Positions 2,152 to 29,206 of a stretch of DNA of 32,296 nucleotides are shown in pieces. The stretch is taken from positions 1 through 32,296 of the IMG/VR virus record IMGVR_UViG_3300006921_003608, one strand, 5' to 3'. The DNA comes from a virus. The stretch's first letter is position 1, and the number at the start of each line of letters is the position of its first letter. The notes under the pieces are model-generated. The model was not told where the DNA came from and made no database searches. It was given only the letters and a program-made list of their open reading frames with translations. Made by a program: the position numbers and the translations under genes.

Positions 2152-2155
2152 AATA

Positions 2156-2362
2156 CTACTCCACGTATCTTCCACTTTGTGATTTGTTCCAAAGTCTTTC
2201 ATATAAATAAAAATAAATTATACCTAATACATTCATAATGATGGCATTATAAAGTGGTATATCAGTAAGTCCTAATGATAATATCATCCACGTGTTACTG
2301 AATGCTATCACTCTCCATCCAATAGATTTTCTTAATGAACGTCTACGAGTTTCTCTAAACAT
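2156..2362 (-). CDS. DUF2061-type small membrane protein
   Basis: Protein of 68 aa. It starts with the basic stretch ETRRRSLRKSIGWRVIA, has two hydrophobic segments (about residues 19-33 and 38-54), and ends with YLYERLWNKSQSGR. The RRSL-K-xxxWR start and the YLYER-W end are characteristic of DUF2061 proteins, two-helix inner-membrane proteins of unknown role that also occur in marine bacteria. Its start overlaps the preceding stop as TAATG, and its last codons supply the ribosome site of the PC4-like gene. Confidence 0.7.
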   Translation of the reverse strand: MFRETRRRSLRKSIGWRVIAFSNTWMILSLGLTDIPLYNAIIMNVLGIIYFYLYERLWNKSQSGRYVE

Positions 2363-2598
2363 TAATTCAAATGAACCTTTTCACTTTCATCTCCATCATG
2401 GACTCTGAACGTAAGTATCACTTTTTCATCTTCCCAAACCTCATAGTCTTCTAACTTACAACTTTCAGTTGATAAGTATTTTACAACTGAATCTTGTTCT
2501 TCTTGTGATTTACAAATGACATAAATCAAATCACCATTAGTTCTGACCATAACCTTATTATCAGATTGATTATAAACTGTATTATCTTTCCAACTCAT
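2362..2598 (-). CDS. hypothetical acidic protein
   Basis: Protein of 78 aa that I do not recognise. It is acidic, rich in Asp, Glu, Lys and Val, with alternating beta-like and helical stretches and no membrane segment. The ATG at 2598 is preferred over a TTG one codon upstream because GGG sits 6 nt before it. The first codons overlap the last 17 nt of the nucleosidase-like gene, so translation is probably coupled. Confidence 0.6.
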   Translation of the reverse strand: MSWKDNTVYNQSDNKVMVRTNGDLIYVICKSQEEQDSVVKYLSTESCKLEDYEVWEDEKVILTFRVHDGDESEKVHLN

Positions 2599-3235
2599 CA
2601 ATAACCCTTTCTTTAAATTTTACTATACCATCTGCCAAATTACTTTCCCAATCTTTTCCAGAAGACTCGTTAGCTCCATCAGTAATATATTTAAAAGATA
2701 TAAAATCCACATTACGTTTCCAACATACTTTTGCTAATGCGTAAGCTTCCATATCAATTACATAATCAGTATACGGTGAGTTTCTATTATTTACAAATGA
2801 ATCACCACTTGCACACCACTCGTTTCTACCAATAGGATTAAACTCTACGTGACAGAAATCTAACGCAATTGGCACTAATGGTTCAAAAGGTGTTTGATGT
2901 ATCATAAATCCAAGACCCGTAACATCCATATCTCGTTGTATGAATTTAGTACAATCTATTAATTCTCCAATTGGAAGTTTACCACTACCAGCTGTTCCAT
3001 AGTTAATCACCAAGTCATATGGAATATGAGAACCATATTTTCCAAAGTGAGTTGTTAATGCGTAAGTTGCATTTACTTTACCAACACCTGTATATAAAAC
3101 ATCGTAGTCCTCAAGTTGTCCTTGAGTTTCTTGTTCGAGTGCACAAACTATAAGTGGTTTCTTATCCAACTCACGTGCCTTTGTCTCCACCTCTTGAAAC
3201 CCAAGTTTTTGTCCTCTCCATCCTATTTTATTCAT
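2582..3235 (-). CDS. MTA/SAH nucleosidase-like phosphorylase-superfamily enzyme
   Basis: Protein of 217 aa of the PNP/UDP-phosphorylase superfamily. Matching features: TGVGKVNA (49-56), the loop NYGTAGSG (78-85), the substrate-binding strand VIDMEAYALA (149-158, Glu153 in the usual ribose-contact place) and ITDGAN (174-179, Asp176 in the general-acid place). This set fits 5'-methylthioadenosine/S-adenosylhomocysteine nucleosidases, which release adenine. The start overlaps the stop of the adenine phosphoribosyltransferase gene as ATGA. The pair could turn MTA or SAH into adenine and then AMP. The first 25 residues are an extra extension compared with usual enzymes. Exact substrate is inference. 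Confidence 0.75.
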   Translation of the reverse strand: MNKIGWRGQKLGFQEVETKARELDKKPLIVCALEQETQGQLEDYDVLYTGVGKVNATYALTTHFGKYGSHIPYDLVINYGTAGSGKLPIGELIDCTKFIQRDMDVTGLGFMIHQTPFEPLVPIALDFCHVEFNPIGRNEWCASGDSFVNNRNSPYTDYVIDMEAYALAKVCWKRNVDFISFKYITDGANESSGKDWESNLADGIVKFKERVIDELER

Positions 3236-3768
3236 CGTTCTCCCAACTCTTTATATTGTACAGCTGAATGAACTTTGTGGCCATCTATTGTGAAATCCTC
3301 TTCATGTAAATATTGTAAATCAATGAATACAGCAATACCGAGAACATTATATCCTGCTAGTTTCAGTACATCATATGAAGCCTTTAATGTTCCACCTGTA
3401 GCCAAAACATCATCTACCAATACAACTGATTTCCTTTCACCAGCTGGTTTTACTTCAAGTGTATCAGTGCCATATTCTAAACTATATTCCTTACCGATTA
3501 CTGGTGGGGGAAGTTTCCCTTTTTTTCTAATCATCAACACACCACCACCATTAACACCACTTAAACCTGCAGCAAATATAAATCCCCTACTCTCAACACC
3601 TGCCCATAATTCGTTATTGTGTCCTTGTAGCATATTCAATAAAGCCAATCTAAACATATGTGGTATTGCAATTACTGGAGATATGTCTTTATAATTAATC
3701 CCATCTTTAGGAAAGTCAGGTACATCAGCTATATTATCTTTGAAAAAATGGCTAGATTCTTTAATCAT
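3232..3768 (-). CDS. apt: adenine phosphoribosyltransferase
   Basis: Protein of 178 aa, the usual length for this enzyme. It converts adenine plus PRPP into AMP. Visible motifs: FPKDGINYKDISP (19-31), GVESRGFIFA (57-66), RKKGKLP (81-87), EYGTDTLE (98-105) and the PRPP loop VVLVDDVLATGGT (115-127). All are close to the bacterial Apt consensus. It is followed by the nucleosidase-like gene with ATGA overlap and preceded by a tiny membrane protein gene. Catalytic residues look intact, so it is likely active. Confidence 0.92.
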   Translation of the reverse strand: MIKESSHFFKDNIADVPDFPKDGINYKDISPVIAIPHMFRLALLNMLQGHNNELWAGVESRGFIFAAGLSGVNGGGVLMIRKKGKLPPPVIGKEYSLEYGTDTLEVKPAGERKSVVLVDDVLATGGTLKASYDVLKLAGYNVLGIAVFIDLQYLHEEDFTIDGHKVHSAVQYKELGER

Positions 3769-3770
3769 TT

Positions 3771-3854
3771 CTATTTATCCTCTTCATTTAAAAATTTTCT
3801 TATTTGATAAAACGTAAATCCAAGTATAAGAACGGCCAATATATAATCAATCAT
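3771..3854 (-). CDS. 27-aa single-span membrane peptide
   Basis: A small open frame starts at 3854 with an ATG that overlaps the stop of the preceding gene (ATGA) and ends with TAG just before apt. The product begins MIDYILAVLILGFTFY, one clear membrane span, followed by a charged tail. Its position fills the only gap between two genes, and the coupling signal is the same as for its neighbours, so I regard it as real. Function unknown. Confidence 0.6.
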   Translation of the reverse strand: MIDYILAVLILGFTFYQIRKFLNEEDK

Positions 3855-4069
3855 TTCTTTATCATTCCTTCTTCAACTGATTTTAATAAATCCATAATCA
3901 ATGGATACTCATGATACTCTTTTAGTTTCTCTATTAGGTTTGCAAAATATTCCATAGGCATAGTATCTAAATCATATTCCTCTATGATATTTGCCTGCTC
4001 GATAAACGTATTAATTGTATCTTGTAAATCTTGTGGTAGGTTTTCATCAGCTTTCTTATTTATCGGCAT
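3851..4069 (-). CDS. hypothetical helical acidic protein
   Basis: Protein of 72 aa, mostly helical and acidic (two runs of Glu/Asp with Leu/Ile heptads), with no membrane segment. The ATG at 4069 overlaps the preceding stop as TGATG and has AGG 6 nt upstream; a GTG one codon earlier is too close to that site. I do not recognise the family. Confidence 0.6.
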   Translation of the reverse strand: MPINKKADENLPQDLQDTINTFIEQANIIEEYDLDTMPMEYFANLIEKLKEYHEYPLIMDLLKSVEEGMIKK

Positions 4070-4428
4070 CACTCACCTATCACATTTGTTACCTGTATTA
4101 AGATTATTGATAACGCCAATAAAAGACAGATTGCAGTTTTTAGTGTAGGGATTTCTTTCAGAAATAAATACGACATCAATCCAAAGACTAATGTACCTAA
4201 TCCAAATCCAATCATACGAATATTCCAAGTGAATCCAAAATGTTCATAACTTAATTTTGATGCATGAAAAAATGCATAACCTACTGGTATACCAAAGATA
4301 GACATCCATTCTCCCGAACTCCAAAACCAATGACCTTTAAATTTTTCGATGAATTGTGCATTCAACTGCCACCAAGCCATTATATTACTTATAACCAATA
4401 TGACCATAGCCATTACTAATTTACTCAA
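4069..4428 (-). CDS. four-helix membrane protein, DMT-transporter-like
   Basis: Protein of 119 aa with four hydrophobic segments (about residues 3-18, 43-57, 70-90 and 95-115). The spacing and the ending YLFLKEIPTLKTAICLLLALSIILIQ resemble the half-size drug/metabolite transporter-type proteins (EamA/DUF486/SMR size class). The TTG at 4428 directly follows the previous stop and has GGGGAAG 8 nt upstream; an ATG at 4413 is an alternative. Substrate unknown. Confidence 0.6.
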   Translation of the reverse strand: MSKLVMAMVILVISNIMAWWQLNAQFIEKFKGHWFWSSGEWMSIFGIPVGYAFFHASKLSYEHFGFTWNIRMIGFGLGTLVFGLMSYLFLKEIPTLKTAICLLLALSIILIQVTNVIGE

Positions 4429-6367: not shown

Positions 6368-6391
6368 TTGAATTTCCTTATCAAATTCTTG

Positions 6392-6464
6392 AGCCAGAGA
6401 TAGGATTCGAACCTACGACCTAGTGATTACAAATCACTTGCTCTACCAACTGAGCTACTCTGGC
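6392..6464 (-). tRNA. tRNA-Thr (anticodon UGU)
   Basis: Cloverleaf read by eye: acceptor GCCAGAG pairs with CTCTGGC, the D-arm is GCTC...GAGC, the anticodon stem AGTGA/TCACT encloses the loop TTTGTAA, and the T-loop is TTCGAAT. The anticodon is TGT. The discriminator is U and CCA is not encoded. Transcribed after tRNA-Ala, probably from P2. Confidence 0.93.
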
Positions 6465-6469
6465 GTTTG

Positions 6470-6542
6470 TGGAGCTGACTGGACTCGAACCAGCGACCTC
6501 CTCCGTGCAAGGGAGGCGTTCTCCCAACTGAACTACAGCCCC
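6470..6542 (-). tRNA. tRNA-Ala (anticodon UGC)
   Basis: The acceptor GGGGCTG pairs with CAGCTCC and contains a G3:U70 wobble, the main alanine identity element. Anticodon stem CCTCC/GGAGG with loop CTTGCAC gives TGC. T-loop TTCGAGT, discriminator A, no encoded CCA. Five nucleotides separate it from tRNA-Thr. Confidence 0.94.
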
Positions 6543-6544
6543 AT

Positions 6545-6569
6545 ACTTCGTGTCAACCACGACACAAGT
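6545..6569 (-). other. leader hairpin before tRNA-Ala
   Basis: Between promoter P2 and the tRNA-Ala 5' end the transcript can form ACTT-GTGTC / GACAC-(G)-AAGT, nine pairs with one bulged G and a six-base loop. It ends two bases before the mature tRNA and may help 5' processing. It has no T-run, so it is not a terminator. Confidence 0.45.
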
Positions 6570-6579
6570 CTTTAAACAG

Positions 6580-6609
6580 AATATACTACATTTTATACAT
6601 ATGTGTCAA
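6580..6609 (-). promoter_or_regulatory. sigma70-type promoter P2 (repeat family)
   Basis: An A7 tract and GTGC precede a perfect TTGACA (6604-6609), then 18 nt, then TATATT (6580-6585). It is the best match to the host consensus in the window. It lies just downstream of tRNA-Glu and would drive tRNA-Ala, tRNA-Thr and the genes down to 345. Confidence 0.75.
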
Positions 6610-6621
6610 GCACTTTTTTTG

Positions 6622-6693
6622 TAGCCCGTAGGAGAATCGAACTCCTGTTGCAGGAATGAAAATCCTGAGTCCTAACCACTAGACGAACGGGCC
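6622..6693 (-). tRNA. tRNA-Glu (anticodon UUC)
   Basis: The D-arm start TCGTCTAG is typical of bacterial tRNA-Glu. Anticodon stem CAGGA/TCCTG with loop TTTTCAT gives TTC. T-arm CAGGAGTTCGATTCTCCT. The acceptor GGCCCGT pairs with ACGGGCT and has a G1:U72 wobble. Discriminator A, no encoded CCA. It lies upstream of P2, so it belongs to the preceding transcription unit. Confidence 0.92.
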
Positions 6694-7313: not shown

Positions 7314-8144
7314 CTAAACTACTGCTCTTCCTTTCATTTTTTCCCAATCCCTATTCTTTCTATATTTGTCATTTACCCAATTGATTGTCTCTAATACAAT
7401 TGGGTCTAAATCGAGATTTTGTGCGAATGTAATTAATGCATTTAAATCTTTTGGTAAACAATGTCCACCAAATCCTAAATCACCATCAGGACCTGGTACA
7501 CTTAAATGTGTTTTACCTAATCTCTCATCAAGTGTAGCGTACTCTACAACCTTATCATAATCAATATCTATCTTCTGACATATTTGATATATCTCATTTG
7601 CAAAAGATACCTTTGTAGCCAAATAACTATTAGTCATATACTTCACCATCTCTGCCGTTTTCGAACCCGTCTTAATAATATGTGCTGTTGGAAATACCTT
7701 ACTATAAATCTGTCTTAATTTATTAGTTCCTTTACGAACACCACCTAATATGATTCTATCTTGATTTTTAAAATCCTCTACAAAGTTAGCCTCGGTAAGA
7801 AACTCTGGATTGAATATAACATTTACACCATCATACTTTTTATCTAACATATCTGTAGTTCCTGGTGGAACTGTAGATTTGATAACTACTATCTGTAAAC
7901 CATTTGCATATGTATTTATTTCTTTTATAACACTCTCAACTATATCTGTATGACAACTACCATCTTCATTCATTGGTGTTGGAACACATACAAATATCAC
8001 TTCACATCCCCAAACTAATTGTTTTAAATCACACGTAGTTTTAGACTCATCATATTTATCATAAGTTTCTAATTCATAATATGGTTCAAACCCAACCTTG
8101 ATTGCAGTTCCCACATAACCTTGTCCTACTATTCCTATTTTCAT
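7314..8144 (-). CDS. short UDP-glucose/GDP-mannose dehydrogenase-family protein
   Basis: Protein of 276 aa, against about 390-450 in typical members. It has the NAD motif GIVGQGYVG (4-12), VPTPMNEDG (54-62), STVPPGT (90-96), FNPEFL (111-116) and the catalytic GFGGHCLPKD (224-233) with Cys229 and Asp233. The C-terminal UDP-binding domain is absent: the protein stops about 43 residues after the catalytic Cys. The active-site chain is intact, so it may still oxidise a nucleotide sugar to a uronic acid, possibly as a dimer sharing sites. Start overlaps the carbamoyltransferase stop (ATGA). Short forms are known in marine phages. Confidence 0.85.
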   Translation of the reverse strand: MKIGIVGQGYVGTAIKVGFEPYYELETYDKYDESKTTCDLKQLVWGCEVIFVCVPTPMNEDGSCHTDIVESVIKEINTYANGLQIVVIKSTVPPGTTDMLDKKYDGVNVIFNPEFLTEANFVEDFKNQDRIILGGVRKGTNKLRQIYSKVFPTAHIIKTGSKTAEMVKYMTNSYLATKVSFANEIYQICQKIDIDYDKVVEYATLDERLGKTHLSVPGPDGDLGFGGHCLPKDLNALITFAQNLDLDPIVLETINWVNDKYRKNRDWEKMKGRAVV

Positions 8145-9640
8145 GAATAAACCTTTACGTTATATTTTTTACTAAATTCTATACCATCAAGATAGTTGTT
8201 TACTATGGGTTGACCTTTGATATTCAGACTCGTATTCAGTACCATAGGACAACCTGTTTGTTTATAAAATTTATTTATCAAGTTATAGAAATTAGGGTTA
8301 TCGTCTTTACTTACTGTTTGTACTCTTGATGTTCCATCTACGTGACATATAGCTGGATACTTCTCTGGATACTTACACTTGGCAACGAACTGCATATACT
8401 GAGACTTCTTGACGGGCATATCGAATATCTCGTGTGCATGTTCCTCAAGTACTGCTGGAGCAAATGGTCTAAACTCTTGTCGTTTCTTTATTTTATTTAC
8501 CTTATCTTTTATATCATCACCACGAGGATCTGCCAGTAAACTACGATTACCTAAGGCTCTTGGCCCATATTCAGCTCTACCACTTGCTACACCAACGATA
8601 TTTCCATTGAGTAGTTCTTTACTCACCTGAGTAACAGGATACTTACCTTTTATATTATAACCTAAAAACGTATCTTTCCAATTCACGTGTCTACCGTGTA
8701 AATACGCTGCACATCCAAGTGATGAACCAGCATCGCCGGGATTCGGTATAATCCATAATGAGGGATAGTAGTCACGGGCTATAATACTATTGGCCACACA
8801 ATTCAAAGCAACACCACCACCATAACACATATTCTTTGTTTCGGGTACTAAATGTTGAGCTAAATCAAATACCTTTTTAATCTCATCCTCACATATAGAT
8901 TGTACGTTAGCCGCTATATTAAACTTCCACTCATCAGAGCCGTCATCTTTATAATAATCAGGATTCCAATCTAAACAACCACGATGTAAATTACCACTTA
9001 GTTTAATGGGTAGTGGATTATCTGGTCGTTTAAAGAAGTCATTATAGATGTTCTGTTTTAATTCTTTATCTATGGTGCCCCAACCAGCCATACCCATTAA
9101 GATGTATTCATCCTCTTGGGGCTTTAGCCCCAACCTTTGAGTCATAGCACTATACCACAATCCTAAAGAGTTTGGATACTTTACACTATAACGTTTCTCA
9201 AAGGAATTTCCCTTCACATACCATATCGTACACGTCTCCCATTCACCAATAGCATCTATCACGACTATAGCACTCTCGTCATACGGAGAGGTAAAATAAG
9301 AAGCACAAGCATGAGATGTGTGGTGTTGTACGTAATGGATATCTTTTACGTTCCATTGAAATTGTTTAATATGGGTTTTGGGTAAAGTACTGAATATCTC
9401 TTTATATTGACCAGCGTATAGTTGTCGTGATTTCTTTAAATAAGGTCTTTCGAAAAATACTACTTTATCAATATCACCATACTGAGAACAATCCACGAAC
9501 ATCTTATGGTTTAATAAAGAATCGTTCTTAATATTAGAGTAACGTTCTGAGTGAGCACTGAATAATATCTCATCATTACTATGGTCGAGTAACGTGATAC
9601 TGGCATCATGATTGAGTGCACTAATTCCTAATATCTTCAT
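8141..9640 (-). CDS. carbamoyltransferase (NodU/TobZ family)
   Basis: Protein of 499 aa with both domains. The N-terminal Kae1-like ATPase part has GISALNHDAS (5-14), HHTSHACAS (106-114) and VVIDAIGEWET (126-136), with CYGGGVALN (272-280) and NPGDAGSSLG further on. The C-terminal YrdC-like part has GRAEYGPRALGNRS (354-367), DPRG (371-374) and the ending VLNTSLNIKGQP. These enzymes place a carbamoyl group on a sugar hydroxyl from carbamoyl phosphate and ATP. The family is common in marine phages. It is coupled to the nucleotide-sugar dehydrogenase by ATGA, which suggests a joint sugar-modifying step. All main motifs look intact; the C-terminus is somewhat shorter than in TobZ. Confidence 0.92.
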   Translation of the reverse strand: MKILGISALNHDASITLLDHSNDEILFSAHSERYSNIKNDSLLNHKMFVDCSQYGDIDKVVFFERPYLKKSRQLYAGQYKEIFSTLPKTHIKQFQWNVKDIHYVQHHTSHACASYFTSPYDESAIVVIDAIGEWETCTIWYVKGNSFEKRYSVKYPNSLGLWYSAMTQRLGLKPQEDEYILMGMAGWGTIDKELKQNIYNDFFKRPDNPLPIKLSGNLHRGCLDWNPDYYKDDGSDEWKFNIAANVQSICEDEIKKVFDLAQHLVPETKNMCYGGGVALNCVANSIIARDYYPSLWIIPNPGDAGSSLGCAAYLHGRHVNWKDTFLGYNIKGKYPVTQVSKELLNGNIVGVASGRAEYGPRALGNRSLLADPRGDDIKDKVNKIKKRQEFRPFAPAVLEEHAHEIFDMPVKKSQYMQFVAKCKYPEKYPAICHVDGTSRVQTVSKDDNPNFYNLINKFYKQTGCPMVLNTSLNIKGQPIVNNYLDGIEFSKKYNVKVYS

Positions 9641-15228: not shown

Positions 15229-16671
15229 TTAAGACATCTCCCAACATTCTTTTACTATATTCTCTAATCTTTCACTTCCTTGTTCTAATGGAAAACTTCC
15301 ATTCTTAACCTCATACATAACTGATATTGCATCTTGTATTCTATCGTCATGTCGTCCCATCAAACCCTTAAAGTCATTTTTGAAAAAATTATCAAAATCA
15401 CCTATCTGTAATGAGTTCATTGTAGGGCCTTCACCGAGTCGAGTTGACAAATTCCACATAGAATACCAATTTCTCCATAACTCATAATGATTAAATGAAA
15501 GATATGAACCATATACTAAATCATCATTGTGTTTCAATAACTTACGATATAAATCTTCTAATGGTTTGAATTGTTCTACTGAAAAATCATTGTTATTGAA
15601 GGCCTGTAACACTTTTGGTATTAATGCCTTTATTCCATCAAATGCAGTACACAAACCACGAGAATATAACGGGTCTATGAATCCATACGAATGTGGAAGA
15701 ATACTCCACCTATTGCCAGTACAAGATTTTGATGAGAATTGTATTCTTGGCTCAGTCACCCAAGGCCTAACTACTTTTGCATTCTTAAATTGTTCCCTAA
15801 CATCAGGTAATGATTTGATTAAATCAATAACCTTATTTGGATAGTTTCTACGAAATGGAACTTTACTACATTGAAATCCTACACTTACAATCGGATTTGT
15901 AGACTCTGGTGTATTATTAAATGGAATCACCCATAACCAACCACCCTCAACTATGTGATGCAGTGTTCCGTGATGAAATTTAGTCTTGAACTCAGATTCA
16001 ATGACATTATCAAAAGGTTCAACATCTATCATATGAGTATAACAAGTAGATGAATTAGTTTTTACTTTGGGTATTGTATCTCTTAAATCGAATATCTTCG
16101 CTAATGGTGAGTTACTCCCTACTGCATCTATTATGTATTGACATCTTATTTCTGAACCATCACTTAGTGTAACTCGAACTTCTTCATCTGATTTCACATC
16201 AGTTACTTTTGTGTTAAATAAAAATTTAGAACCATATTTGATTGCGGCATTTACAACGTAAGAATCTACGTCTTGTCGATATAGATGCATTTCAGAACGA
16301 CTTGGGTTGACGTGTTGAAACATTTCTTTTGGATTTGATTTTTTACCCTCTTCATGATAAACATAACCAAAATTTTCTTTGACTCCGACACGACTTGCCA
16401 AATCCTTGAATATTTTATCAGTTGATAATAAATCCACATTATAATACTTTACCAAACCATTCCAAACTGCAGTGAGATAGGGTATCATTGATTCACCTAC
16501 AGAAAACTTTGGATGTGGTGTACTATCCACGACCAACACCCTTAGTCCTTGTTTTGATAGTATTGCAGAAAGAAATGAACCTATTAATCCACTTCCAACT
16601 ATTATAACATCTATGTTGTTAGGTATATTATCTGAATCTTGATAACTATATGTCGAATAATCTTCAAACAT
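15229..16671 (-). CDS. flavin-dependent halogenase-like oxidoreductase
   Basis: Protein of 480 aa. FAD motif VIIVGSGLIGSF (22-33); VGESMIPYL (58-66), matching the 'GES-x-P' of halogenases; WxWxIP at 245-250 (GGWLWVIPFN), the halogenase signature thought to keep out monooxygenase chemistry; YGFIDPLYSRGL (329-340), the chloride/flavin region. Lys98 in SRVGVKENFGY is the best candidate for the catalytic lysine. A viral member of this family, VirX1 of a marine cyanophage, is known to iodinate small molecules, so halogenation here is plausible, but the substrate is unknown. The ribosome site is weak; the ATG at 16671 is the natural start. Confidence 0.82.
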   Translation of the reverse strand: MFEDYSTYSYQDSDNIPNNIDVIIVGSGLIGSFLSAILSKQGLRVLVVDSTPHPKFSVGESMIPYLTAVWNGLVKYYNVDLLSTDKIFKDLASRVGVKENFGYVYHEEGKKSNPKEMFQHVNPSRSEMHLYRQDVDSYVVNAAIKYGSKFLFNTKVTDVKSDEEVRVTLSDGSEIRCQYIIDAVGSNSPLAKIFDLRDTIPKVKTNSSTCYTHMIDVEPFDNVIESEFKTKFHHGTLHHIVEGGWLWVIPFNNTPESTNPIVSVGFQCSKVPFRRNYPNKVIDLIKSLPDVREQFKNAKVVRPWVTEPRIQFSSKSCTGNRWSILPHSYGFIDPLYSRGLCTAFDGIKALIPKVLQAFNNNDFSVEQFKPLEDLYRKLLKHNDDLVYGSYLSFNHYELWRNWYSMWNLSTRLGEGPTMNSLQIGDFDNFFKNDFKGLMGRHDDRIQDAISVMYEVKNGSFPLEQGSERLENIVKECWEMS

Positions 16672-21516: not shown

Positions 21517-22152
21517 TCAACCTACACCTTTCCATGTTGCACCATTATTTGTATAATGATGTTTTACAACTAAATCTGATTGATATAGTATATTGTTACC
21601 TTTATCAATTTGTTCTTGAGCCCAATATCTATCTTCTTTCCCACTTAACCGTTCATCAAAGGGATTTTCTTTAATAAAATCAGTATCAAATATTGAGAAT
21701 GCATTATGAAAAAAGTATCTATTCTCTGAATTACAAAAATGATTTATTTTATTTTCATCACCAAAGTTAGACCACAAGTATCTTGGTGTAACTTTTTTAC
21801 CATCCCATATTGGAATCTGTTTTCCCCAAACTGCTACCGTGTAATCATCCCAAGCGATATCAGACCATTTTATTATTTCACAATGAGCTGATATGACTAT
21901 CGTGACATTGTTTTCACATATACTTATTCCATAGTTTAAAGAACTACCAGGTGAATAATCATTTTTATCAATCTTTAATCTGGTGATATCTAAATAGTCA
22001 AACGTATTAACAACTCTTAAAGATTCATCTGTAGATTCATTATCAACGATTACTACTTGTATTTTATCACCTAAGAAATCAACTAAAGATTGTATACAAT
22101 GTCCTATAAATCTTTCCTCGTTTCTGTTTCTTATTACAACTGAGTATGTCAT
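21517..22152 (-). CDS. GT2-family glycosyltransferase, short form
   Basis: Protein of 211 aa with the GT-A start SVVIRNRNEERFIGHCIQSL (4-23) and VIVDNESTDES (34-44). The usual DxD position is weak (ISAHCEI); later NPFDERLSGKEDRYWAQE (about 165-182) is the ED-containing acceptor segment. It is shorter than most GT2 enzymes but looks complete. Start overlaps the GT29-like gene stop. Confidence 0.8.
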   Translation of the reverse strand: MTYSVVIRNRNEERFIGHCIQSLVDFLGDKIQVVIVDNESTDESLRVVNTFDYLDITRLKIDKNDYSPGSSLNYGISICENNVTIVISAHCEIIKWSDIAWDDYTVAVWGKQIPIWDGKKVTPRYLWSNFGDENKINHFCNSENRYFFHNAFSIFDTDFIKENPFDERLSGKEDRYWAQEQIDKGNNILYQSDLVVKHHYTNNGATWKGVG

Positions 22153-22892
22153 TTTAATTGTTTTATCCTACCTTGTTCCACAAAATCTTCAATAATCTTA
22201 GTCTCTGTATCATAGTCTAATATGGCATAATTTCCATTTTCTCTGACGAGTTGGGTTTTAAAATATTTCTCTCTTTCAGTTCCAATGTATCTACCTATAT
22301 CAACTGTAAAATAATGTTTACCAAGTTTTGACTTACCTTTTTTGGCCTTAACACTAACATCATCCTTAAAAAAACTATTTCCATATACAAAAACTTCTCC
22401 AAACACTTCAAGTGCCGTTAAGATTGTCAAAAATCCTGTACCTGGACTCACAACACCAGTGCTACTTGGATTTAATTTATTACAATGTTCTCTTATAAAC
22501 TCTGAGACATAACACAACTGATGTCCATTATGACTTTTATGCATAAATCTAAATTTTGTCTTATCTGTTATAAAATGTTGTAGTTGTTTTTCATTATCAA
22601 AAAATAAATTGTCTCCCACTTCCTCTCTAACAGTCCACACTTCCCTAAAAGGCCCTAATTTGTTCTTTTGATAGTCCATCCAATCACTTATTCTCATAAG
22701 TGGATGACTTTTTTGACTCGGTGGGCCTGAACAACTAGCCCATATATCGGTTTTGGTTCCAACGTGTTTTTCATAACCATCTATCTCAAAATCATTTATT
22801 CTGATTACCGTATCAAATGAATCTATTTTTTCACCAAGTTCTCTCTCTAAAACTACAGGTGAGTTTGAAACTATAATTGCTTTCTTACCCAT
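22149..22892 (-). CDS. sialyltransferase-like glycosyltransferase (GT29 type)
   Basis: Protein of 247 aa. Residues 5-52 match the large sialyl motif: AIIVSNSPVV, then EKIDSFDTVIRIND (21-34), then VGTKTDIW. Residues 142-174 match the small motif: SSTGVVSPGTGFLTILTAL then EVFVYGNSFF. His193 (KHYF) is in the place of the catalytic/VS motif His. This enzyme class transfers sialic or related ulosonic acids from CMP-sugar, which fits the CMP-sugar synthetase-like genes upstream. The start is set at the ATG at 22892, with AAGGA 10 nt upstream and TAATG coupling; the longer TTG reading overlaps the phosphatase gene. Acceptor unknown. Confidence 0.75.
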   Translation of the reverse strand: MGKKAIIVSNSPVVLERELGEKIDSFDTVIRINDFEIDGYEKHVGTKTDIWASCSGPPSQKSHPLMRISDWMDYQKNKLGPFREVWTVREEVGDNLFFDNEKQLQHFITDKTKFRFMHKSHNGHQLCYVSEFIREHCNKLNPSSTGVVSPGTGFLTILTALEVFGEVFVYGNSFFKDDVSVKAKKGKSKLGKHYFTVDIGRYIGTEREKYFKTQLVRENGNYAILDYDTETKIIEDFVEQGRIKQLK

Positions 22893-23293
22893 TACTTGAA
22901 ATTCCTTTTGATTTGTTCCCAACTTTCGAAGCGAATACCTTTATCATCAATATAAGCTACTGCATTGGGTTTAATATATGTTACGTCTTTAATATTTTGT
23001 TTTATTCCATGTTTCTCTAACCACTCCCAAACTAATTCGATTCCATTCTTACCATCAATAAGAGGTCTATCAGGATTGGCCTTGCAACTATAGATTATTA
23101 AGTCATAACCTAATTCTTCATTTAAATATTTCACACCCTCAATTGCACCTCTAAGTGGTTCATCGTATATTGTACCATCATGAAAACCTTTTGAATTTTT
23201 ATGTATAACTCCATCAAAATCCAAACCAAGTTGACTCTTTTCGGTATCACTAACCATTTCTAAAAAGTCATCAAGTTCCATCTGATTTTCCAT
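22892..23293 (-). CDS. small HAD-superfamily phosphatase
   Basis: Protein of 133 aa. Catalytic motif LGLDFDGVIH (22-31; Asp25, Asp27), motif II in IIYSCKAN (66-73), Lys108 in YIKPN and acidic motif AYIDDKGIRF (113-122). A small capless HAD of this size fits a sugar-phosphate phosphatase. In this operon it would do the dephosphorylation step of a KDO/sialic-type path (as KdsC does). That assignment is inference from context. Confidence 0.75.
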   Translation of the reverse strand: MENQMELDDFLEMVSDTEKSQLGLDFDGVIHKNSKGFHDGTIYDEPLRGAIEGVKYLNEELGYDLIIYSCKANPDRPLIDGKNGIELVWEWLEKHGIKQNIKDVTYIKPNAVAYIDDKGIRFESWEQIKRNFK

Positions 23294-23849
23294 ATTTTCT
23301 TATAAGTTCTGATTTTATTGTTGGACATGAATTACCCGTTCCGTGAATTAATTGATAGAAAGTTAACTCCGACAATATTTCAACCGTGTGAAAATAATCC
23401 CTATCAAAACACACTTCATTTATTTTTTCATCAAGACAATTTGACTTTTGACCTGATATTAGTGCGGTGGATATATTATATCTGTCATTACACCAAGAAA
23501 GTGCTGACACCACATTCTTAGAATTACCTGAACCTGATAAACCTATCACCATTGATTTCATATCAGGATAAATGTAGTCTTCTAACCACTTTATGAAAAT
23601 GTTATCATATTTGTAATCATTTGCTATTGATGTAATGTAACTAACATTATCTAACGAGTAACATTTTTTATCAGTAAGTCTTGTGATATCAGAAGATGCA
23701 TGAGAACAAACTGGTGAATTACCACCATTACCTATAAAATAGATATTATCTGCCTCATCAAAATCTTTTTGTAATTGTTTAAATTCATCGGTGTCAATTT
23801 TTGATTCAAATATTTCCAATAAATTTTCAAACTCAACCATTCTACTCAT
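23271..23849 (-). CDS. SIS-domain phosphosugar isomerase (GmhA-like)
   Basis: Protein of 192 aa, the size of GmhA. NGGNSPVCSHASSDI (41-55), TSIANDYKYDNIF (73-85) and GLSGSGNSKNV (103-113) follow the order of sedoheptulose-7-phosphate isomerases. KdsD-type enzymes share the SIS fold but carry CBS domains that are absent here. It probably makes the phosphorylated sugar that feeds the aldolase in the same operon. It overlaps the phosphatase gene by 23 nt. Confidence 0.8.
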   Translation of the reverse strand: MSRMVEFENLLEIFESKIDTDEFKQLQKDFDEADNIYFIGNGGNSPVCSHASSDITRLTDKKCYSLDNVSYITSIANDYKYDNIFIKWLEDYIYPDMKSMVIGLSGSGNSKNVVSALSWCNDRYNISTALISGQKSNCLDEKINEVCFDRDYFHTVEILSELTFYQLIHGTGNSCPTIKSELIRKYGKSDGT

Positions 23850-25012
23850 TTTCTATCCTTTACATCATCACCAACATAGACATGGGCCACATCTTCTCTA
23901 CTAACCGCCAACCTTATTGCTGGTTTACTCCCTATCGCATGTATTTGATGGGATTTACCTTTCTCTATGAAGACTAAATCTCCTTTTTTAACAATGAATG
24001 ATTCATCTTCAATATCCCATTTCCAATGGCCATCTACGATATACCACCACTCATTCCAACTTGGATGGTAATGTCTTCTATTACCCTCACCTGGTCTTTG
24101 ACATATTAACGTCGCACTATTGTTTTCTGTATTGACCAATCTTTTTGCCCAAGATGGTTTATTATTCTTGATAATCTCATCAATGTTTACAACTGAATGG
24201 TTTGCATCAAGAAAATCAGGATTTTCAACTCCATCTTTATAAAGTATATCGTGATAATCATCGTGTGTTGTGTCTCTCTCAATTGTTACATCTAAATGTT
24301 TTTTAGGATCATAATATTGAGGTTTAGTATGTCGGTTCATATTCAAATGACTATGTACAACTTCAGCCAATCTAAAATCATCCTCAGTATCAATATCAAT
24401 TGTTGACCATCCATCCAATTCAAAGAAACCAGTTCTTCCATCACCACCGTGATATGCTGAACTAAACTTTTTCATATTATCAACATACTTGTTTTTATTC
24501 CATGCCATTAAACCACAAGCATAAGATTGTATGGGTTTTAAATCTTGTGAGGGTGGTGTAATTTCTTTTTGGTTAAAATTAATAGGATTACCATCGTAGA
24601 TAGATTCAATTTGTATATTATTAACCGATATAAGAGTTTCATAATTATTATCGTGAAACTTTTTTACGAATAGTTTTACATCCTCAACTGAAATAAAAGG
24701 TGATGTAGAAAGTAACTGAACTAAATCATCACACTCTACGTTCTGTAAAAAATCATAAGCAAAATCATCATTCGTCTTATCATCTTCAGCAAGATAATCT
24801 GGTCTCTTATAAAACTTTACACCATATTTTTTTGCTATCGGTTCGAATATTTCTGATTCAGAATTAATATAAATTTCATCGAATACATTTGCCTTTATCG
24901 CAGTTTCAAGAACATAACATATTAAGGGTTTACCATCGATTAACCTAAGATTTTTATTCTTAACCCTTTTACTACCTAACCTGACAGGAATCATGGCTAT
25001 AGTTTTACTCAT
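23846..25012 (-). CDS. CMP-sugar synthetase-like cytidylyltransferase fused to a cupin
   Basis: Protein of 388 aa with two domains. Residues 1-230 are a NeuA/KdsB-type cytidylyltransferase: MIPVRLGSKRVKNKNL (7-22), INSESEIF, QLLSTSPF (99-106) and IDIDTEDDF (205-213). Residues 290-375 are a cupin with a complete first motif: His314-x-His316-x4-Glu321-x6-Gly328, and His355 in the second. Cytidylyltransferases of this family make CMP-KDO or CMP-sialic acid; the cupin may be a sugar epimerase/isomerase or a lid. I do not recall this fusion as a standard one. No frameshift or internal stop is visible, so the fusion is real in this sequence. Confidence 0.82.
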   Translation of the reverse strand: MSKTIAMIPVRLGSKRVKNKNLRLIDGKPLICYVLETAIKANVFDEIYINSESEIFEPIAKKYGVKFYKRPDYLAEDDKTNDDFAYDFLQNVECDDLVQLLSTSPFISVEDVKLFVKKFHDNNYETLISVNNIQIESIYDGNPINFNQKEITPPSQDLKPIQSYACGLMAWNKNKYVDNMKKFSSAYHGGDGRTGFFELDGWSTIDIDTEDDFRLAEVVHSHLNMNRHTKPQYYDPKKHLDVTIERDTTHDDYHDILYKDGVENPDFLDANHSVVNIDEIIKNNKPSWAKRLVNTENNSATLICQRPGEGNRRHYHPSWNEWWYIVDGHWKWDIEDESFIVKKGDLVFIEKGKSHQIHAIGSKPAIRLAVSREDVAHVYVGDDVKDRK

Positions 25013-26183
25013 TTAAAACTCCATTGATTAAATTATACGCTTTATCAAACTCTTCTTCAGTAGTTGTTAAATGTGGTCTCAGTCTAACTGACTTATCACC
25101 TGTTGGATTACATAACATCCCACTTGAGAAGAGGTCATTAAAAAAATTGTCTCTTTGAGTTTGTGTATCAAAATCAAATGCTATCAAACAACCTTTCCCT
25201 CTAACATTATAAATATTATCTATCGTCTTCAATCTATCAATAAATTTTTGACTTTCAATGGAAACTGACTCACGAAGATTTTCTTTCTCAATAACTTCCA
25301 TCACATATGTTGACCTTATCATATCAATCAAATCTGAGTCCCAAGTTGTGTATAATATCTTTGTATCAAGTATTGATGAAAATTCTTCTAATGCCATAAA
25401 TCCACATACTTGTGCCTTCTTACCAAATATTACTATGTCAGGATAAAAATCGAGATGTTCAAAGAACCAAGTTTTACCTGTTGCACAAAAACCTGTTTGA
25501 ATCTCATCAAATATTAATGGGACGTTTAGTTCTGTACATAACTCTCGTATTCCTCTTAGAAATTCATAGTCTAAGTGATTGTCCCCATATGTAGATTGAA
25601 TAGGTTCAACAATCACTCCTGCTATAGAATCATCGGATTTAAGTAATTGTTCTAATTCGTCTAATGTCTCAAAGTGAGGCCATATACCACCACCAGGAAA
25701 ACCATCCATTTTAGTTGAAATAGGATAGAATCTCGTGGTTAGTATGTTACTATAAGACATGATACCATGAAAATCATTTTTCACGGAGAGTATTTTAGGA
25801 TTTTCTTTTTTAGTATGATGTATGGCGGCTTTGACTGCACATTCTACGGCCAATGCACCTGTGGAAACAAACCATGATTTTACATATTTCCCATTACATG
25901 AAGAGAACTCCATAAAATTTTTGTAAAATCTATCATACTCATCCGTTGAAAACTCACAATTGACAATTTTAAATTTTGATACTTTTCTTATCTCATCTTG
26001 AAATGATTCTGTAGAGAATATTGGATGATTGTATCCAATTGGAATTGAGGAAAACATACCAAAGAAATCAAGATAAGATTTATTTGTATTTTTATCAAAA
26101 ATGTAACTACCATTACTCTTATCAAAATCATATCTTATATTAAATATACCCTTGTCAGGTTCCCCTGCATACATATTATTCAA
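25005..26183 (-). CDS. class III aminotransferase, lysine-6-aminotransferase-like
   Basis: Protein of 392 aa, PLP-dependent. STGALAVECAVKAA (107-120), IVEPIQSTYGD (191-201), IFDEIQTGF (224-232) and the Lys-bearing IFGKKAQVCGF (252-262). The GKKAQVCG form is typical of L-lysine 6-aminotransferases rather than of ornithine or GSA enzymes. In the operon it may aminate a sugar aldehyde or ulosonic acid (as in 8-amino-KDO) or supply an amino-acid substituent. Start: TTG at 26183 with AAGGA about 10 nt upstream; ATG at 26174 is an alternative. Confidence 0.82.
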   Translation of the reverse strand: MNNMYAGEPDKGIFNIRYDFDKSNGSYIFDKNTNKSYLDFFGMFSSIPIGYNHPIFSTESFQDEIRKVSKFKIVNCEFSTDEYDRFYKNFMEFSSCNGKYVKSWFVSTGALAVECAVKAAIHHTKKENPKILSVKNDFHGIMSYSNILTTRFYPISTKMDGFPGGGIWPHFETLDELEQLLKSDDSIAGVIVEPIQSTYGDNHLDYEFLRGIRELCTELNVPLIFDEIQTGFCATGKTWFFEHLDFYPDIVIFGKKAQVCGFMALEEFSSILDTKILYTTWDSDLIDMIRSTYVMEVIEKENLRESVSIESQKFIDRLKTIDNIYNVRGKGCLIAFDFDTQTQRDNFFNDLFSSGMLCNPTGDKSVRLRPHLTTTEEEFDKAYNLINGVLNE

Positions 26184-26189
26184 AACAAA

Positions 26190-27050
26190 TTATTCCTTTG
26201 TCATCTGACTATAAGCTGGATGTTTAACATTCCTAACTATACTTTGTAGTGTATCTAATGAAATAGCTTGGTCGGCATCACTTATTGATTCTGTTGGATT
26301 TGGATGGGACTCTATTATCAACCCATCTGCTCCTGCAGATATTGCTGCGTATGATATTGATGGAACGAAGTTTCTATATCCTGTGGCGTGACTTGGATCG
26401 TATATGATTGGAATATCACATAACTCTTTTAATGCTGGTATCATCATCAAGTCAGGTGCCCATCTGATTGACGGAAACACATGACGATAAGATGGTGCTC
26501 CAACCACTCCTCTCAAACATATTGCAACTTTCTCATTACCCTTTACTAATATTCTTTCTACTGCTCCAAGTATCTCATCAATCGTTCCCCAAGTTCCTCG
26601 TTTCAATAAGATTGGTATATCCAACTCACCTAACGCATCTAATAGGGTGTAGTTTTGAAAGTTACGAGTTCCAACTTGAACTATGTCAATACAATCCATC
26701 GTGGATTCTGTAATTTGATTTGAATCCATTATTTCAGATACGATTGGTAATCCAGTTTCTTCTCGTGCTGTTTTCAAAAATCTTAAACCCTCTTCTCTCA
26801 ATCCTTCTTTCCAACCATTTTTACCAACTTCTTCCGTTACAGGAAATGTACAAGGTTTATATGCTCCACCTCGTAATGCATTAACACGAACACCTTTCAT
26901 TTTATGTGCCCAATCCACAATCATTTCTTCTGATTCAACTGAACAAGGGCCTGATATAACATATGGACTATCGTCAAACTTCCATCTATCTGGTTGTAAT
27001 GATATGTCTAATTTTTTAGCATCTACTAATGATTGTATATATGTGTTCAT
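26190..27050 (-). CDS. DAHP/KDO8P-synthase-family aldolase
   Basis: Protein of 286 aa, a TIM-barrel PEP-condensing enzyme. SGPCSVES (33-40) with metal Cys36, RGGAYKPCTFP (60-70), TRNFQNYTLL (118-127), LLKRGTWGTIDE (148-159), DPSHATG (218-224) and IIESHPNP (245-252) follow the type I-beta DAHP synthase order. It differs where DAHP synthases read CERG-x-R (here CLRGVVG, about 178-184), so the sugar-phosphate substrate may differ. With the isomerase, phosphatase and cytidylyltransferases nearby, it probably builds a 3-deoxy-ulosonic acid phosphate. Real DAHP supply for aromatics is the alternative, but no other shikimate gene is present. Confidence 0.8.
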   Translation of the reverse strand: MNTYIQSLVDAKKLDISLQPDRWKFDDSPYVISGPCSVESEEMIVDWAHKMKGVRVNALRGGAYKPCTFPVTEEVGKNGWKEGLREEGLRFLKTAREETGLPIVSEIMDSNQITESTMDCIDIVQVGTRNFQNYTLLDALGELDIPILLKRGTWGTIDEILGAVERILVKGNEKVAICLRGVVGAPSYRHVFPSIRWAPDLMMIPALKELCDIPIIYDPSHATGYRNFVPSISYAAISAGADGLIIESHPNPTESISDADQAISLDTLQSIVRNVKHPAYSQMTKE

Positions 27051-27655
27051 CTTTCACTCCTTATATTTTTAAATTCTATATGTCTCTCTGCCTGTCTTAA
27101 ATCCTCTTCACTATGGATGTTGGTACAATCATCGAGATAACTTCCAACTCTACGACTCATCATACCACTCTCTACAAATTCTTTTTTTGTGATTCTAACC
27201 GCACCATTTCGTGTACCATTTGAATCAACTGTGACTAAATCATCGTATTTATTCTCCACAGCGTATGTTAATAGTTCATCCACATTAGTTCTTCTATCAG
27301 GATGGTCAGGTTGTATTCCAACTACATGAGTTGTTGTTTGAGGTATTCTCCATTCACCTGAATTTGGAAAGTCATTTTTAAACACATTAACATAAACATC
27401 AGCAACTTCTCTTTCTCCCATAAATTCTTCATCTCTCCAATAAAAAATACATCCGTTTTCTTTTGCTATTTTTTCCACCTCTTCACTATTACTCGTGACC
27501 ACGATATCTTTAATTAATTTAGAGTTCTTAGCATAATCTATTGCGTGTTCAACAAGAGTTTTATTTGCAATTACTCTTAAATTCTTTTTCTTTAATCTTG
27601 TGGAGTCTGTTTTGGCTGGTATGATAGCTAATCCACATATGTTAGTTGATTTCAT
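27047..27655 (-). CDS. second CMP-sugar synthetase-like cytidylyltransferase
   Basis: Protein of 202 aa. Nucleotide-binding start AIIPAKTDSTRLKKKNLRVI (10-29), HAIDYAKNSKLIKDIVVTSNSEEVEKIA (37-64), then IQPDHPDRRTNVDELL in the place of the family's 'lqpT-PlR'. It is a NeuA/NeuA-like fold but more divergent than the fused copy. Two such enzymes in one operon suggest two activated sugars, or one enzyme with changed substrate. Start overlap and tight spacing show operon membership. Confidence 0.78.
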   Translation of the reverse strand: MKSTNICGLAIIPAKTDSTRLKKKNLRVIANKTLVEHAIDYAKNSKLIKDIVVTSNSEEVEKIAKENGCIFYWRDEEFMGEREVADVYVNVFKNDFPNSGEWRIPQTTTHVVGIQPDHPDRRTNVDELLTYAVENKYDDLVTVDSNGTRNGAVRITKKEFVESGMMSRRVGSYLDDCTNIHSEEDLRQAERHIEFKNIRSER

Positions 27656-27656
27656 T

Positions 27657-28262
27657 TTATATCCTTTTGTATAACTTTAGACTGTACCAATGTGGATCTT
27701 TAGAACACTCACCAACTTTTATCAGACTATAAGTATCTTCTAAGTTGTATTCATGATAAACCCTTGGCCACAATCTTTTTAGGTCTTCACCATCTTCTGA
27801 AAATAATTCCCTTAATAAAATATACTTTGGTTTCACTATTGTTTTTACTTTATCTATTATCTCCACTACAGACTCTTTGTCTATGTGCATTAAATGGTCT
27901 GAAGAAATAAATATATCAATATCATCTGTAACTACTGATTTAAAATCTCTAATTAAACTTAAAGTATCCATTTCTATGAATTTAACTTTATCTTTTATGG
28001 ATTCATGCATATTTTCAAAACTTGATTCAGAGTGTAGGTCATTTGCAAAAAGATTTATTGTATCATTTAAATCATTTATATATTTTAAATTTCTACACCC
28101 ACCAGAACCTATCTCAAAAACATTGATTCCATTTTTCAATACATCATTATCATTCAAAAAATTTGCAAGTTCTATAGAATTATCCGTTAAAAATGAGTGT
28201 GTTGGATAATGTCCTACTCTCTTCTGATAATCTTTACCAAACTTCTTTATATATTTACTCAT
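27657..28262 (-). CDS. SAM-dependent methyltransferase
   Basis: Protein of 201 aa. Class I motif VFEIGSGGCRNLKY (48-61), an acidic strand end at IEMDTL and FISSDHLMHID, then the usual C-terminal strands. It fits small sugar or lipid O/N-methyltransferases. In this operon it probably methylates a sugar; substrate unknown. One base separates it from the cytidylyltransferase gene. Confidence 0.78.
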   Translation of the reverse strand: MSKYIKKFGKDYQKRVGHYPTHSFLTDNSIELANFLNDNDVLKNGINVFEIGSGGCRNLKYINDLNDTINLFANDLHSESSFENMHESIKDKVKFIEMDTLSLIRDFKSVVTDDIDIFISSDHLMHIDKESVVEIIDKVKTIVKPKYILLRELFSEDGEDLKRLWPRVYHEYNLEDTYSLIKVGECSKDPHWYSLKLYKRI

Positions 28263-29206
28263 TATACATTTTCCTCTTTAAATTTATTTATTGCCCAAAG
28301 GTAAGCTTTTGTTTGTCCTTCAATAGTCATCCCACCAATATGTGGTGTTATCACTACATTATTATTTGGATTGATTGAAAACTCTACTAATTTACTATTT
28401 TCAATATCACCAAACTCATCCCTAATTACATCCGTTCCATAACCTTTCAAATGTCCACTTTCAATTGATTTAATTATGGCATCCTCATCAACTAATTCAC
28501 CTCTTGCCGTGTTTATCAAAAAACTTCCGTCTTTCATTTTTTGAATAAACTCATCATCAACCATGTCTTTTGTTTCTTCTGTCACATGAGTATGTAAAAA
28601 AACTATATCAGATTTATCTAATAACTCATCTAATGATACACCATTTTCATCTGTAATCCTTGCGTAAGGATCTGTTACTAAGATATCTACTTCCCAACCA
28701 TCAAATAACCGACACATAATTTTACCAAGTCTACCATAACCAATTACACCAATAGTCTTACCTTTAATTTGATGTCCAACATAAGGTTCATAATCCCAAT
28801 TTCCATCTTTTACTGAATGAAATGATGTTGGTATGAATCTTAATAAAGACATCATTAATCCAAATGCTAGTTCAGAAGTTGATGGTAAATCATTGATTAA
28901 CTCGTAATCTTTTTTTAACGACCACACCTCTATATCCATTATTTTACAATACTCTAAGTCTATATGATTTAAACCTGTGGAACAAGTGTTAATCACTTCT
29001 ACATTTGTACCAGTCAAAACACTATGATTTAAATGAAAGTTTTGTTTATTTGGATTTGTAAAGATGTGAGTTATTTCATTTTCTATTAGAACATTTTTTA
29101 GTTCACTTACTTTTATGTTTGGTTTGTAAGTGACTTCACCACACTTATTTATTAAGTCAACTGCTCCATCTAAATGTTCGATAGGAGTCATGCATAATAT
29201 GTTCAT
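28262..29206 (-). CDS. D-2-hydroxyacid dehydrogenase
   Basis: Protein of 314 aa. NAD motif GVIGYGRLG (143-151), catalytic Arg225 in INTARGELVDE (221-231), Glu254 and His279 in ITPHIGG. All active-site residues of the phosphoglycerate/D-lactate dehydrogenase family are present. Ulosonic acids are 2-keto acids, so a 2-keto or 2-hydroxy acid sugar or amino-acid-derived side chain is a plausible substrate, but this is inference. Confidence 0.85.
   Translation of the reverse strand: MNILCMTPIEHLDGAVDLINKCGEVTYKPNIKVSELKNVLIENEITHIFTNPNKQNFHLNHSVLTGTNVEVINTCSTGLNHIDLEYCKIMDIEVWSLKKDYELINDLPSTSELAFGLMMSLLRFIPTSFHSVKDGNWDYEPYVGHQIKGKTIGVIGYGRLGKIMCRLFDGWEVDILVTDPYARITDENGVSLDELLDKSDIVFLHTHVTEETKDMVDDEFIQKMKDGSFLINTARGELVDEDAIIKSIESGHLKGYGTDVIRDEFGDIENSKLVEFSINPNNNVVITPHIGGMTIEGQTKAYLWAINKFKEENV

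Follow-up and report, generated by a model that had tools for sequence, protein, structure and literature searches.

The seven consecutive genes at positions 22149-27655 of the window (the whole 32,296-nucleotide stretch of viral DNA analyzed) are two separately conserved modules put together and not a single pathway. Module A consists of HADH, CMT1, ALD and GT2a, sometimes with a methyltransferase (MT); module B, consisting of AT3, CMTcup, SIS, HAD and GT29, is located between ALD and GT2a. We consider it likely that module A encodes a route to an ulosonic acid in which ALD, an aldolase derived from DAHP synthase, fills the slot of NeuB, and that module B is an inserted second route.

The seven coupled genes described in a sequence-only reading of this DNA were confirmed as ORFs on the minus strand; in reading order CMT1-ALD-AT3-CMTcup-SIS-HAD-GT29, their junctions measure -4, +6, -8, -4, -23, and -31 bases. 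The gene run extends past both ends of this span to take in HADH, the methyltransferase gene and GT2a, and HADH and GT2a are tied to ALD more firmly than are AT3, SIS, HAD or GT29. The phage, a marine one, carries T4-type replication genes (UvsX, clamp loader), and the region is part of a large sugar island.

Table 1 Genes of the two modules and the seam between them, with the matches on which each assignment is based.
Feature	Description	Position	Strand	Basis
HADH	D-2-hydroxyacid dehydrogenase, module A, outside the seven-gene span	28262..29206	-	PF02826 2e-47
MT	small methyltransferase-like, optional in module A	27657..28262	-	weak Methyltransf_25
CMT1	CMP-ulosonate synthetase-like, module A	27047..27655	-	PF02348 1e-16; predicted fold
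ALD	DAHP-synthase-Ib-derived PEP aldolase, proposed ulosonic acid synthase, module A	26190..27050	-	PF00793 2.7e-50
AT3	class III omega-aminotransferase, module B	25005..26183	-	PF00202 3.7e-63
CMTcup	CMP-sugar synthetase with C-terminal cupin, module B	23846..25012	-	PF02348 3e-22, Cupin_2 3e-14
SIS	GmhA-like sugar-phosphate isomerase, module B	23271..23849	-	TIGR00441 9e-13, below cut-off
HAD	small HAD phosphatase-like, module B	22892..23293	-	phrog_1238 7.8e-15
GT29	sialyltransferase-like, module B	22149..22922	-	PF00777 2.5e-17, over cut-off
GT2a	family 2 glycosyltransferase, module A, outside the seven-gene span	21517..22152	-	PF00535 4e-12
Seam	TAAAATGA, GT29 stop/GT2a start	22145..22156	-	sequence comparison

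In relatives, a GT2a-type gene is the next one after ALD, and in L003-L006 it follows directly with no insert. The seam of the window, TAAAATGA, is identical in sequence to the ALD-GT2a junction of L003 and L004. Module B was found in 12 further viral records that lack ALD, AT3 and CMTcup are paired in 12 of 12 other viral loci, and no other record compared holds ALD/CMT1 together with AT3/CMTcup. Judged from these comparisons, module B entered the lineage of the window phage by insertion at a precise seam, with ALD on one side and GT2a on the other. The single KdsD-KdsA-KdsC-KdsB-like path first proposed is not supported; as for the recurrence expected of it, the full seven-gene set was not found elsewhere, whereas each half recurs.

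Of 13 non-identical viral loci, 12 carry HADH, CMT1, and ALD together and 11 have GT2a as well; in the exception, L085, the module is reduced to ALD and a GT2-CMT1 fusion. These counts are not independent, since the viral loci were picked by the presence of ALD and the phages are akin to one another. All but one of the 14 ALD-bearing viral loci (13 of 14) gave a HADH profile match, as did both phage cassettes with a NeuB-type synthase. Outside viruses, module A is present in a small number of single-cell genomes from the sea, assigned to Synechococcus, Pelagibacteraceae, alphaproteobacteria, and Bacteroidetes. HADH is fused to a CMT in Pelagibacteraceae L053 and alphaproteobacterium L050, and this fusion, like that of GT2 to CMT1, indicates that the steps of module A are linked. 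Homologues of the methyltransferase lie within the cassette in L052 (58%) and L225/L226 (36-40%). ALD was considered as a universal gene of the window phage group and rejected, being present in 0 of 24 records selected by clamp loader, many of them fragments; a strong CMT1 match was present in 2 of these. Among 50,697 phage records, no CMT1 relative and only one partial CMP-synthetase match to CMTcup were found, so the described phages of that collection lack the system.

In the tree, ALD forms its own clade (support 100/100), derived from DAHP synthase Ib and apart from KdsA. Its nearest solved fold, by sequence and by structure, is the DAHP synthase 1vs1, and it scores below the curated DAHP synthase cut-offs (231 against 268 bits for TIGR01361, 258 against 335 for NF006421). 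Metal and PEP residues are retained (C36, H221, E247, D258, K65, R151, and R180 are invariant in the alignment), two acceptor loops are enlarged by insertions, and the KPRTS motif has become KPCT(F/Y)P, with KPCTFP in the window copy. Grouping of the aldolase with true DAHP synthases, named beforehand as an observation that would count against a sugar route, held in so far as these are its nearest relatives and failed in that ALD does not fall inside them. A role as the KDO enzyme KdsA is ruled out by the tree and by the missing KANRS motif, in keeping with the suggestion that the members belong to subfamilies other than those of the KDO enzymes; true KdsA-like genes are present separately in L009 and L011. 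Of the NeuB models, PF03102 matched ALD at 27 bits, just over its cut-off, and TIGR03569 at 17.8 bits against 400, and ALD has no second, antifreeze-like domain. The Arg-to-Cys change in KPRTS was also considered as proof of an unphosphorylated acceptor, and this is weakened by Armatimonadota DAHP-synthase-like proteins that share it (KPCTSPYS), one of which adjoins an amino-acid gene. As the change is not decisive alone, the argument for such an acceptor now rests on the exchange with NeuB.

This exchange is seen in two further phages and in a Pelagibacter genome, where the CMT1/GT2a family accompanies a NeuB-type synthase rather than ALD. The phage records G639 and G636 have the order HADH-CMT1-MT-NeuB-GT2a, with NeuB (PF03102, 2.6e-61) at the ALD position, and a search of both for ALD found none; these NeuB-for-ALD cassettes are L225/L226. 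In a Pelagibacter-family genome (L236), one polypeptide joins CMT1 to a complete NeuB that includes the antifreeze-like domain at its C terminus. At least two ALD/NeuB swaps are required by the GT2a trees, and the CMT1 tree, to be read with a warning about long branches, is consistent with them. Because NeuB fills the same slot beside CMT1 and GT2a and was swapped at least twice, ALD is best read as a DAHP-synthase-derived stand-in for NeuB; its descent from DAHP synthase Ib and its slot together suggest that it works like a sialic acid synthase without being one. The two synthases of this slot may differ in the acid that they make.

The predicted model of CMT1 (pLDDT 88.5) has the CTP_transf_3 fold (PF02348), and its best PDB match is the CMP-NeuAc synthetase 6ifd (E 3e-14, TMq 0.81). 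The CMP-activated ulosonic acid route of the sequence-only reading is supported by this fold, which is that of CMP-sialate synthetases, and by the pairing or fusion of CMT1/GT2a with NeuB elsewhere. The two-aspartate metal site (DxD) is not present in CMT1: the DID of 1eyr is replaced by N/D-I-H, with the His invariant in 12 sequences, so the CMT1 reaction could differ. GT2a has an invariant SxH at the position where GT2 enzymes usually have an acidic DxD, and CMP donors are not usual for GT2 enzymes.

The enzyme types assigned earlier were recovered by Pfam for the aldolase, the two CMP-synthetase-like proteins, the aminotransferase and GT29, and less firmly for the other two members of module B. 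SIS scored 48.5 bits against GmhA, under the curated cut-off of 209 and thus outside the GmhA/KdsD family so defined; it adjoins AT3/CMTcup in relatives. HAD had no Pfam or NCBIfam match and was assigned by phrog_1238, by its DFDGV...DDK motifs and by a SIS-HAD fusion in another phage (L128), to the HAD half of which it is 54% identical. The nearest solved relative of AT3 is L-lysine 6-aminotransferase (2.6e-49). CMTcup, with relatives at 52-56%, keeps its DID intact and gives a full-length match to the CMP-NeuAc synthetase 1qwj (1.3e-16, aligned residues 6-217), so that both cytidylyltransferases group with CMP-sugar enzymes, as had been anticipated. GT29 scored 63.6 bits against the PF00777 cut-off of 23 and has sialylmotif L and S regions; in the window copy no His aligned at the catalytic position of motif VS, where the alignment is poor. 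Bacterial GT29 enzymes are on record (PMC5811610).

In the mechanism that we propose, ALD would condense PEP with an aldehyde acceptor, probably not a phosphosugar, to give a 3-deoxy-2-ulosonic acid, and HADH would supply or modify an acid intermediate. CMT1, as its fold and fusions suggest, would use CTP to place CMP on the C2 hydroxyl of the ulosonic acid, and GT2a or another transferase would then put the residue on a glycan. Module B would yield a second CMP-activated precursor, probably amino-bearing. A hydropathy search of about 62 kb for an exporter found no protein with at least five membrane spans, such as adjoin the host cassettes, which hints at cytosolic use or at use of the host's exporter.

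Translational coupling of all seven genes is what one would expect if SIS, ALD, HAD, CMT, AT3, and GT29 worked one after another toward the synthesis and transfer of a single amino-ulosonic acid. Three other phage contigs, L123, L126, and L128, do have such a run, in which CMTcup and AT3 stand with a second CMT, an aldolase, and SIS either alone or fused to HAD; L126 also shows a weak match to GT29. That aldolase is an unrelated HpcH/HpaI enzyme. Most module B relatives, however, have an AroB-related cyclase and an SDR instead; no cyclase was found when sought in the window phage and its relatives. ALD also lacks the phosphate-binding Arg expected of a KdsA-like path that ends in a phosphatase, and with ALD/CMT1 and AT3/CMTcup apart in all other records, we regard a single series as unlikely.

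Still less probable, and very unlikely in itself, is that ALD is an ordinary DAHP synthase which raises the flux toward aromatic amino acids or shikimate in the infected cell, its position being incidental. Its closest solved relatives in sequence and fold are DAHP synthases, and NCBIfam DAHP synthase models match it at 230-258 bits, but the sub-threshold scores, separate clade, lost KPRTS and enlarged loops, together with its fixed linkage to CMT1, HADH, and GT2a and its exchange with NeuB, argue otherwise. A somewhat better, though doubtful, alternative concerns the product: if the end on which HADH acts were a second carboxylate, and the aldehyde taken by ALD were carboxylated, module A would make an ulosonaric (two-carboxylate) acid. 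HADH, a 2-hydroxyacid enzyme, is kept with both synthase types, a second HADH lies in the cassettes of L053 and L050, and L053 adds a sugar-acid-dehydratase-like protein of the enolase superfamily; 2-hydroxyacid dehydrogenases are promiscuous, however, and no HADH neighbors the Pelagibacter CMT1-NeuB locus.

Ulosonic acids (KDO, sialic, legionaminic, and pseudaminic) are central surface sugars, and to our knowledge their known synthases belong to the KdsA and NeuB lineages. Beyond the two-module reading, we hold with evenly balanced confidence that an ulosonic (sialic-like) acid synthase arose a further time, as ALD, out of DAHP synthase, that ALD takes an unphosphorylated acceptor and was swapped more than once with NeuB beside one CMP-synthetase family, and that its product is an undescribed acidic sugar common to marine phages and picoplankton surface-glycan loci. 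If so, ulosonic acid synthesis would have another independent solution, and abundant marine bacteria, like their phages, would be predicted to contain a new acidic sugar. The region also illustrates how phages build glycan pathways, with entire precursor modules dropped into the junctions between genes. Literature searches on this gene set, KPRTS chemistry and phage GT29 found nothing on point.

Among known systems, KdsA/KdsB share with module A the general logic of a PEP aldolase and a CMP-transferase, whereas ALD is without KANRS and outside the KdsA clade. Module B resembles, in AT3, CMTcup, and SIS, the AroB-related cyclase clusters (TIGR04425) with a class III aminotransferase and a CMP-transferase, but the cyclase is absent from the window contig and its 51.6 kb near-copy, and no SDR stands beside module B in the window. 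DAHP synthase type Ib (AroA-beta) is like ALD in fold, metal ligands (Cys/His/Glu/Asp), PEP residues and 35-43% identity, and differs from it in motif, acceptor loops, clade and the sugar context of ALD. The NeuB (sialic/legionaminic/pseudaminic) and NeuA-type pair is matched in cassette slot, in the CMT1 and GT2a families alongside and in the PEP-dependent barrel; ALD departs from it in its DAHP synthase descent, marginal NeuB-model matches and single-domain form, and CMT1 in the His that replaces a metal-site Asp.

The seven-gene run was present as the sequence-only reading had described. Profile searches confirmed two cytidylyltransferase-type enzymes (CMT1, CMP-ulosonate synthetase-like, and CMTcup, a CMP-sugar synthetase fused at its C-terminus to a cupin), an aldolase of the DAHP_synth_1 family (ALD), a class III aminotransferase (AT3) and a GT29 enzyme; profile support was weak for both the GmhA-like SIS and the HAD assignments. 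The single KdsD-KdsA-KdsC-KdsB-like path that had been proposed is not supported. The run divides between module A (HADH, CMT1, ALD and GT2a, with an optional methyltransferase, MT; HADH, MT and GT2a lie outside the run) and module B (AT3, CMTcup, SIS, HAD and GT29), which has relatives without ALD. In the related loci L003-L006, ALD runs straight into GT2a. The window ALD carries a tail of ten additional residues, and TAAAATGA, where the five-gene block ends, is also the sequence that joins ALD to GT2a in L003 and L004; this end point and the direct junction in relatives indicate that module B was inserted into module A.

Twelve other viral loci (three being near-copies of one another) combine relatives of AT3 and CMTcup; SIS was detected in 11 of them and ALD in none of the 12 records, nor does a close AT3 occur in any ALD record outside the window's lineage. 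In eight of these loci the pair comes with an SDR and with a putative sugar-phosphate cyclase related to AroB (TIGR04425; the two tested score 354-367 of 400 bits), which was not found in the window or any ALD contig searched; in three it comes with SIS or a SIS-HAD fusion, a second CMP-transferase and an aldolase of the HpcH/HpaI type. Phage clusters at L118-L122, L125, L127 and L129 combine this cyclase with GT29-like, CMTcup, AT3, SIS and SDR genes, which suggests that they make a CMP-activated aminocyclitol or similar compound.

The window, a 32,296-base IMG/VR record, is near-identical to the 51.6-kb record G001, whose additional genes (UvsX, clamp loader, DnaB helicase, exonuclease and ssDNA-binding protein) identify the cassette carrier as a phage with T4-type replication genes. 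The 935-residue TonB-plug protein has a 69% relative in the record G005; such an outer-membrane-receptor-like protein would be unusual in a phage and hints at a Bacteroidota host. The FAD-dependent oxidoreductase has no counterpart among related contigs.

Coordinates of the gene run and of additional features in the window and compared loci
Source	Position	Strand	Feature
Window	22149-27655	minus	Seven ORFs, overlapping or almost abutting
Window	6391-6693		Cluster of three tRNA genes (Thr, Ala, Glu)
Window	7314-9640		Carbamoyltransferase, then UDP-glucose/GDP-mannose dehydrogenase-like protein in shortened form; more genes for sugar tailoring
Window	15229-16671		FAD-dependent oxidoreductase; tryptophan-halogenase-like and lycopene-cyclase-like matches
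L016 (= G001 41424-44231)	1424-4231		935-residue protein among phage replication genes; signal-like N-terminus, carboxypeptidase-regulatory domain, TonB-dependent receptor plug (PF07715 4.8e-15)
L053	3213-7846		Cellular cassette; CMT-HADH fusion and second HADH upstream of ALD
L050	3176-7818		As L053
L009	1684-2496		KdsA-like aldolase, 40-44% to E. coli KdsA
L011	6788-7594		As L009

An aldolase scan of viral contigs returned 12 loci, with two more when an alignment was used. HADH and CMT1 lie upstream of the aldolase in all 11 relatives of the first locus set, GT2a is the very next gene after it in every case except L011, and homologues of all four genes were found in 11/11 relatives within the read parts of each contig, the remaining neighbours varying freely; since these loci were picked by ALD, the counts measure linkage, not prevalence. 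ALD is better conserved among relatives (63-90% identity) than the phage DNA polymerase (33-64%). In cellular genomes the cassette is rare: a scan covering 84,980 species gave six aldolase-clade matches, and 1/300 Synechococcus-family and 1/297 Pelagibacter-family genomes had it. Several cellular cassettes adjoin polytopic proteins of transport type, ABC transporters among them. Those of L053 and L050 also include a talarate/galactarate-dehydratase-like enolase-superfamily protein (L053 copy tested).

Gene content, order, coupling, fusions, exchange and motif changes were observed directly, and from them we infer a scheme in which ALD would condense PEP to give a 3-deoxy-2-ulosonic acid, CMT1 would activate it and GT2a would transfer the activated residue, HADH presumably acting on an acid intermediate. 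The CMT1 model (pLDDT 88.5) best matches CMP-sialate synthetases; the DID found at the metal site in the Neisseria enzyme and retained in CMTcup aligns to N/D-I-H in CMT1, the His being invariant, so that CMT1 is a divergent member whose activity is predicted. GT2a has an invariant SxH where an acidic DxD would stand, which would suit a CMP donor without proving one. Module B may supply a separate CMP-activated, probably amino-bearing precursor for transfer by GT29, in which the motif VS His is not clearly aligned in the window protein. No polytopic exporter or polymerase was seen in ~62 kb of this phage, which implies either that decoration of virion proteins takes place in the cytosol or that a host export route is used.

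ALD scores under all curated DAHPS and KdsA cut-offs, and its closest solved structures by sequence and by fold are DAHP synthases; its model (pLDDT 80.7) is least confident precisely where the substrate loops lie. A tree of 58 proteins places the cassette aldolases in a single 100/100 clade among DAHPS-type enzymes, with KdsA as a separate 100/100 clade. No metal ligand or PEP-binding residue varies in the alignment, and two loops, one following strand 2 and the other following the RG motif, exceed their DAHPS or KdsA counterparts in length. The Arg-Thr of KPRTS grips the phosphate of erythrose-4-phosphate; cassette aldolases have KPCT(F/Y)P here (KPATFP in one cell genome), a change that by itself is only a hint because Armatimonadota DAHPS-like proteins share KPCT. 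A second DAHPS-derived clade in Synechococcus-family genomes (L087-L093; KPLTFPY, one copy KPLSFPY) adjoins inositol-dehydrogenase-like and AroE-like proteins, possibly another altered DAHP-synthase sugar or cyclitol route. The genuinely KdsA-like genes of L009 and L011 stand with CMP-transferases and GT29-like genes on ALD-cassette contigs; some phages thus carry two routes.

To avoid the ALD bias, contigs were picked by their clamp loader and 24 of them were searched. None contained ALD, and two contained CMT1 (242-247 bits), both in the order HADH-CMT1-MT-X-GT2a; the protein encoded by X, 265 residues long, belongs to the NeuB family (PF03102 2.6e-61), and its nearest model is N-acetylneuraminate synthase. 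A Pelagibacter-family genome encodes a CMT1-NeuB fusion in which the NeuB part is full-length and the CMT1 part shares the NIH signature, with GT2a one gene later. Two NeuB-linked groups occupy separate supported positions among ALD-linked ones in the GT2a tree, forcing at least two synthase exchanges; the CMT1 tree agrees but has long branches, and pruning leaves its order unresolved. The ulosonic-acid idea is upheld and strengthened, but for another gene set than the one first listed. NeuB enzymes convert unphosphorylated aldoses to nonulosonic acids, and the simplest reading is that ALD performs an equivalent job. What is chiefly new here is an enzyme of DAHPS descent as a probable stand-in for NeuB.
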